Assembly (NCBI GenBank): GCA_944392385.1
Contig: CALXWL010000007.1
Span: forward strand, 1 to 43,239
DNA: 43,239 bases
Reading direction: 5' to 3'
Source of the DNA: an uncultured Clostridia bacterium
GTDB taxonomy: Bacteria; Bacillota; Clostridia; TANB77; CAG-508
The notes under the pieces: model-generated
Database searches by the model: none
Told to the model about the DNA's origin: nothing
Seen by the model: the letters and a program-made list of their open reading frames with translations, nothing else
Made by a program: the position numbers and the translations under genes
Shown here: piece after piece, positions 27,609 to 28,290 of the stretch
Position numbering within the stretch: position 1 is the first letter of the stretch
Layout: each line of letters begins with the position of its first letter

Positions 27609-27641
27609 TTTTGGGCGAATTTATTATTCGCCCAAAATTTG
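27609..27641. terminator. Bidirectional terminator
   Basis: A stem of AATTTTGGGCGAAT and ATTCGCCCAAAATT around TTATT, a long perfect hairpin after the Cys-rich gene. Its distal AAAATTT forms the left boundary of the DUF559 cassette. Confidence 0.75.
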
Positions 27642-28262
27642 TTACTAGATAATGGTTTTTATGTTATTATACAAACCTTATTCAGAAAAAAACTTCGAAG
27701 GCATACAGGAAAGCCCCTTTAACAAGGGGGCTGTCGCCTTAGCGACTGGGGGTTCTTTACACTTGTTTTCTCTTTCTTATATTATTAACTATAGCTTCAA
27801 TATACTCACATGCTTATATAAAATTTTTTCTAATCTGTTCATTTGTAAATCGTATTATTCTTATTTTATATGTTTCTAATACTTCTGTTCGTATTTTATC
27901 ATATTTCATGCCTTCCTCTGTATAATGTTGACTTCCATCAATTTCTATTCCTATTTTTTTTGATGGACAGTAAAAATCTAAAATGTAATTATCTATTATT
28001 TTTTGTCTCATAAATCTTACTTGGGATTTTGCTAGATATTGATACCAAAGTTTGTTTTCTTCTGGTGTTGCTTTGTTTCTTAGTTCTCTAGCCTTTTGAA
28101 TTAAATTTTTGTTATATGGTAAATAATTTGGTTCTCCTTTCTAAGAACCCCCAGTCGCTAAGGCGACAGCCACCTTGGTGGCAAGGGGCTTTCCTGTATG
28201 CCTTCGAAGTTTTTTTCTGAATAAAGTTTGTATAATAACATAGAAACCATTATCTAGTAACC
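27641..28262 (-). mobile_element. DUF559 endonuclease cassette between long inverted arms
   Basis: Two arms of about 118 bp (27641-27757 and 28143-28261) are nearly identical inverted repeats. They start GTTACTAGATAATGG and end at ...CTGGGGGTTCTT. Each arm has two hairpins. One is GTCGC-CTTA-GCGAC, the same in both arms. The other is C/G-rich and differs between arms but remains pairable in both (AGCCCC/GGGGGCT on the left, GCCACCTTG/CAAGGGGC on the right). Between them on the minus strand lies a DUF559-type endonuclease frame. AAAATTT flanks both sides and could be a 7-bp target duplication, though its palindromic nature makes this ambiguous. Confidence 0.7.
27814..28140 (-). pseudogene. DUF559 (Vsr-like fold) endonuclease frame without a normal start codon
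   Basis: The minus-strand frame is open from 28140 to the TAA at 27814. It encodes LPYNKNLIQKARELRNKATP, EENKLWYQYL, then FMRQKIIDNYILDFYCPSKK and IGIEIDGSQHYTEEGMKYD. This is nearly the whole DUF559 domain with its acidic residues (DFYCP, EIDGSQH), related to very-short-patch-repair endonucleases. An AAAGGAG site sits at the frame's upstream edge, yet no ATG, GTG or TTG occurs before the internal ATG at 28011, which would remove the first third. It could be a mutated start, a non-canonical start, or a recently dead gene. The rest of the reading frame is undamaged. Confidence 0.65.
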
Positions 28263-28290
28263 AAAATTTTAACAAAAATCACCTTATCAC

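Follow-up and report, generated by a model that had tools for sequence, protein, structure and literature searches.

What kind of element places a single endonuclease-type frame between inverted arms of more than 100 bp, and what moves it? The question is posed by a cassette in the window (the whole stretch of 43,239 nt that was analyzed), which belongs to a draft assembly of 1.33 Mb in 71 contigs (G000). The first-pass annotation had described a DUF559 frame between inverted arms of about 118 bp, and both parts of this description were borne out. The segments 27638-27757 and 28143-28264 are inverted arms of ~118 bp, with 82 nt at 96% and 35 nt at 97% complementarity; their local alignment score is 100.5, the best of 300 shuffles reaching 13.5, and the enclosed frame matches PF04480. 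As also described, no transposase lies between the arms, and no known RNA family was matched in the window by Rfam 15 at the gathering threshold.

Each arm consists of two layers, an outer part of ~67 bp and an inner part of ~47 bp, both of which are also found apart. The outer part of the left arm (27641..27711, plus strand) begins with GTTACTAGATAATGG and constitutes the terminal inverted repeat of an outer transposition unit. It is followed on the same strand by hairpin A (AGCCCCTTTAACAAGGGGGCT, 27712..27732), hairpin B (GTCGCCTTAGCGAC, 27733..27746) and a tail, TGGGGGTTCTT (27747..27757), which is complementary to the C-rich 5' strand of hairpin A; hairpin A lies within a match to the arm model at 27712-27758. 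The right arm has the same arrangement on the minus strand, namely an outer part again beginning with GTTACTAGATAATGG (28191..28261), a variant of hairpin A (AGCCCCTTGCCACCAAGGTGGCT, 28168..28190, within an arm model match at 28142-28190), hairpin B (28154..28167) and the tail TGGGGGTTCTT (28143..28153). A Shine-Dalgarno-like sequence, AGAAAGGAG (28134..28142, minus strand), is located immediately inside the right arm and is followed by the degenerate DUF559 frame (27757..28128, minus strand), the original stop of which was near 27757. The GTCGC-CTTA-GCGAC hairpin assigned earlier to each arm is indeed present in both, at 27733-27746 and 28154-28167. The further claim that the C/G-rich hairpin differs between arms while its pairing is kept holds strongly across copies and relatives and partially within the window copy, where the right hairpin A carries an extra GCCACC in its loop and a single C/T mismatch in its long stem, or forms an alternative 5-bp hairpin. 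Finally, the AAAATTT proposed as a target duplication gives way to a true duplication of 8 bp, CAAAATTT, found at 27633..27640, in overlap with the hairpin that terminates the upstream gene, and at 28262..28269. This matched pair makes it unlikely that the window copy was assembled wrongly from two copies.

The gene of the window copy is dead, as had been suspected. The PF04480 profile matches the minus-strand frame across one TAA (27816-27814), which lies ~20 codons ahead of the normal end and was not reported by the earlier reader. The start codon noted as missing was lost by a 1-nt deletion relative to sister copies of the same genome: the start position at 28128 reads AAT, with one T deleted, and the sister copies have AAATTTATTTACC, with ATT there. 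As a member of a mobile repeat system, the window copy is dead and otherwise ordinary. Start positions vary among relatives. In the same genus, AUU, preceded by a good Shine-Dalgarno sequence, is the apparent start of the intact DUF559 frames L002:1634-2002 (on contig C46) and L030:2884-3252, and AUG is found at the start position in L025, L026, and L028. Five loci from different species (L027, L029, L031, L032, and L069) have in common a frameshift near the N-terminus and AUA at the start position; AUA was rejected as a conserved rare start, since the group shares the nearby frameshift, and these copies are better read as a decayed subfamily, or possibly as a case of programmed frameshifting.

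The intact sister copy on C46 matches PF04480 with 94 bits (E 6.6e-27), above the curated cut-off, and a dN/dS of 0.27-0.30 between intact DUF559 copies indicates purifying selection. Among 31 proteins, the residues D51, E62, D64, G65, H68, D77, and R80 do not vary. The fold predicted for this single ~120-aa domain by AlphaFold2 (pLDDT 87) is closest to 3HRL (Z 14.4), a solved DUF559 protein, and also resembles I-Bth0305I (Z 11.7) and Vsr (Z 9.9). On the strength of this model, DUF559 is a PD-(D/E)XK nuclease of the Vsr/EDxHD fold, sharing with I-Bth0305I and Vsr the catalytic fold and the conserved acidic and His residues, whereas the element described here differs from those systems in lacking an extended DNA-binding region, an intron or intein setting, a single homing site, and a link to a cytosine methylase. 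In Caulobacter, a connection with DNA damage has been reported for the DUF559 protein VsrA (PMC12907096).

About ten copies of the element were found in the host genome. One further full copy (C46) is 96% identical to the window copy, and its frame is open, the start position reading ATT; two copies are internally deleted (C70 and C9), four are cut by contig ends (C25, C19, C28, and C64), and there are shorter arm pieces besides. Three full or nearly full copies, those in the window, C46, and C70, are flanked by 8-bp duplications, the last two by duplications of their own (TGTGCAAA and TATCTTTT, respectively). On C70, the element lies between parB and tRNA-Ser. In the sister genome G007 this junction is uninterrupted and synteny is kept (91% over the junction-spanning match), and parB and tRNA-Ser stand together, with the element absent, in G001-G004 and G006. 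The composite element thus has a clean empty site, and the reading as a mobile cassette with a true target duplication (CAAAATTT at the window copy) is supported. Neither of the other two copies allowed such a comparison: the window copy flanks are not adjacent in G001-G004, and those of C46 are also non-syntenic in relatives. In the left flank of the C70 copy (L004), a different repeat, which ends in CTGAATGGTAAC, lies next to the insertion; G005 and G007 contain dozens of sequences that match it.

The first-pass annotation had raised the possibility of spread in the manner of a homing cassette. In such a drive, DUF559 would cut arm-free alleles at a fixed target and recombination would copy the cassette into them, as with EDxHD enzymes. 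The predicted fold does match the catalytic domain of I-Bth0305I, but the insertion sites are unrelated, diverse AT-rich sequences with 8-bp duplications, a transposition-like pattern with no single homing site. Moreover, DUF559 is one short domain, whereas EDxHD enzymes were described with a long DNA-binding region (PMC3943268), and homing-type drive is the least probable of the explanations considered, with little chance of being correct.

The 118-bp arm had been treated as a single unit, which it is not: its outer part is mobile alone, and the two hairpins of its inner part recur with DUF559 genes elsewhere. A mini-element of 50 bp at C34:11089-11139 consists of the outer ends only, with an 8-bp duplication, CAGTAATG, and a second 50-bp mini-element, on C6, retains 7/8 of its duplication; such mini-elements move without hairpins or gene. 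The outer ends, with the terminal sequence GTTACTAKATAATGG, are confined to G000; in seven congeners, matches to them do not exceed chance. The inner arms and the gene are kept in relatives whose DUF559 is 75-80% identical (e.g., L030), and the outer sequences of these relatives are different or absent. Since the outer and inner parts occur apart, the outer ends of relatives differ, and the matches in congeners stay at chance level, we read the outer ends as a separate, local transposition unit. No autonomous transposase with these ends was found in the G000 draft assembly, and all ends matching GTTACYAKATAATGG there belong to known copies, bearing in mind that multi-copy elements may be missing from a draft. 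The outer layer has the features of a MITE, i.e., terminal inverted repeats, constant 8-bp duplications (window, C46, C70, and C34), 50-bp miniature copies, and no transposase inside, whereas the element as a whole differs from MITEs in containing a gene and two structured inner arms. Nesting is seen again at L069:2718-3314, where the same inner unit is enclosed by another type of outer end, CAAGGTGATTTCACG, with a flanking direct repeat, CATAAAATG, of 8-9 bp.

The same observations bear on a simpler reading, in which the whole is one autonomous transposon with DUF559 as its sole enzyme, recognizing the full 118-bp ends and making the 8-bp duplications, and the mini-elements are internal-deletion derivatives. 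Within G000 the outer ends are nearly always around DUF559, with no other gene between them, as this reading would have it. It is nonetheless improbable, given the quite different or missing outer ends around closely similar DUF559 genes in relatives (L030) and the mobility of mini-elements that have no hairpins; a single-domain PD-(D/E)XK nuclease is also not known to catalyze strand transfer.

The inner arms have a wider distribution. Their general layout starts with a C-rich hairpin A, in most cases followed by a T-G step; next come hairpin B, which is typically GTC...GAC, and a tail partly complementary to the start of hairpin A. Such inverted arms flank DUF559 relatives in other Clostridia, in termite and rumen bacteria, and in one Nomurabacteria genome. 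A search with a covariance model of the inner arm placed an arm within 350 bp of 60/65 DUF559 loci; the density of arms near DUF559 is 2.08/kb vs. 0.073/kb elsewhere in the same loci, an approximately 28-fold difference. The arms tend to face inward, both upstream (25/34) and downstream (58/75) of the gene. Among 99 genomes of the class, arms occur in all 16 genomes with DUF559 (4-59 each) and in 10 of the 83 without it (Fisher p 4.7e-12), and by family in 10/10 vs. 6/48 (p 1.5e-7); these p-values are overstated, as the arm model was partly built from arms of some of these genomes and relatedness was only crudely corrected for, although the direction is clear. The proposed link between arms and DUF559 therefore extends far beyond this genome (60/65 loci, 16/16 genomes). 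It is not exclusive, as arm pairs do not always enclose DUF559: gene-free pairs and single arms are common, and two DUF559-free genomes are rich in arms (36 in G067 and 47 in G070). The neighborhoods of DUF559 in E. coli and Photobacterium are without inverted arms. In cyanobacteria, Deinococcus, and Sinorhizobium plasmids, DUF559 genes (L288, L289, L291, and L290) stand beside C-rich hairpin repeats of other sequences; the Sinorhizobium DUF559 gene adjoins a CTGCCCTGCCGGGCA...CCCCC hairpin repeat. In their layout, the RIME repeats of rhizobia and other intergenic repeats with two C-rich hairpins are similar, and they may be related.

At several loci the upstream arm runs up to the start codon and the 3' end of the frame extends into the downstream arm, and therefore the arms and the gene form one unit. 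In L153, for instance, the frame (1468-1833) is bracketed by arms at 1416-1467 and 1811-1860. The arrangement could alternatively mean that DUF559 and its arms are passengers, the hairpins serving at the RNA level as a terminator on one side and, on the other, in translation control via the Shine-Dalgarno sequence within or beside the arm, all mobility being provided by unrelated MITE transposases. The termination of upstream arms right at the Shine-Dalgarno sequence or start codon (the arm of L153 ends at 1467 and its ATG is at 1468), the complementarity of the arm tail to the 5' strand of hairpin A, and the independent mobility of the outer ends are all in line with such a role. We nevertheless regard it as unlikely, since mere gene regulation leaves unexplained the many single and paired arms far from DUF559, and since arm pairs are heterotypic and inward-facing, as element ends should be.

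The pairing in the arms is conserved better than their sequence. For hairpin B, 91.6% of pairs are kept in 32 arms, with a covariation of 0.510 vs. 0.124 in shuffled alignments and at most 0.123 in slid ones; for both hairpins in nine class-level arms the covariation is 0.313 vs. 0.118. The idea that structure is selected above sequence in the hairpins, raised earlier from the two arms of the window copy, is thus upheld by sequences that vary while their pairing covaries. In many upstream arms (10/32; the GGC...GAC type, e.g., L159 and L083), the second pair of hairpin B is a G/A mismatch that has been kept, which is of interest given that Vsr acts on mismatches.

Adjacent arm pairs are inward-facing in 29/35 cases (p 6e-5), and 25 of these 29 are heterotypic, combining arms of two types that differ in their tails (p 5e-5); a few related copies are included in the counts. 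In the host genome, C3, C23, C11, and C9:1050 hold inner units without outer ends, which form inward-facing pairs separated by about 16-18 nt of linker. Twelve single-arm sites of G116 are occupied in relatives wherever both flanks were found, with no recent arm movement seen; a search of these twelve sites and two element sites in G116/G119 yielded no empty sites. Neither a clean empty site nor a target duplication was found for the inner unit alone; the loci L029 and L025 were rejected as empty sites, since relatives without the element carry other sequence there, which makes these loci replacements. By analogy with REPINs, the single arms resemble older remnants of inverted pairs.

REPINs are inverted pairs of REP sequences linked to RAYT genes (PMC3116915), and the inner unit parallels them in several features: in both, short palindromic extragenic repeats flank a single enzyme gene, inverted pairs have short linkers, singlets are decayed, and the presence of repeats tracks the enzyme gene. 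The two systems differ in the enzyme, which here is a PD-(D/E)XK nuclease of the DUF559 family (PF04480) and not an HUH tyrosine transposase, and in the arms, which here consist of two hairpins each, vary freely in sequence, and have no GTAG foot tag.

We consider it reasonably probable that the cassette is a nested and decayed element, in which an inner REPIN/RAYT-like unit of DUF559 nuclease and arms is carried by transposition of the outer ends. The inner unit comprises the DUF559 gene between inverted arms of two adjacent hairpins each, and the gene-plus-arms units, the gene-free inward pairs, and the single arms would represent one system across Clostridia and probably beyond. The nuclease most likely recognizes the arms as hairpins or cruciforms and initiates their copying through a nick or cut. 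The outer terminal inverted repeats of ~67 bp would transpose in the ordinary way with 8-bp duplications, most likely by means of a transposase supplied in trans, and this outer layer would recently have spread the inner unit over about ten sites of the host genome. We infer the action of the DUF559 nuclease on the arms, the action in trans of an outer-end transposase, and the direction of nesting, with the inner unit within the outer ends. A broader proposition, to which we would give somewhat less than an even chance, is that the two-hairpin arms are widespread REPIN-like repeats mobilized by a stand-alone DUF559 nuclease that reads the hairpin structure, the sequence of the stems mattering little.

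No published description of such a system, and no relevant link of DUF559 to repeats or mobility, was found in the library of papers searched. The data suggest an unrecognized kind of bacterial repeat that is widespread in gut bacteria and owes its spread to a nuclease, not to a transposase. The role played elsewhere by the RAYT transposase appears to fall here to a Vsr-like nuclease. If this is true, it would be a mechanism of mobile elements outside the DDE, HUH, tyrosine/serine recombinase, and reverse-transcriptase classes, and a nuclease-driven counterpart to REPIN/RAYT that is directly testable. It would also explain where the C-rich hairpin repeats that abound in gut bacteria come from, and it would assign a function to the DUF559 proteins, a large orphan family whose members are common and have no agreed role.
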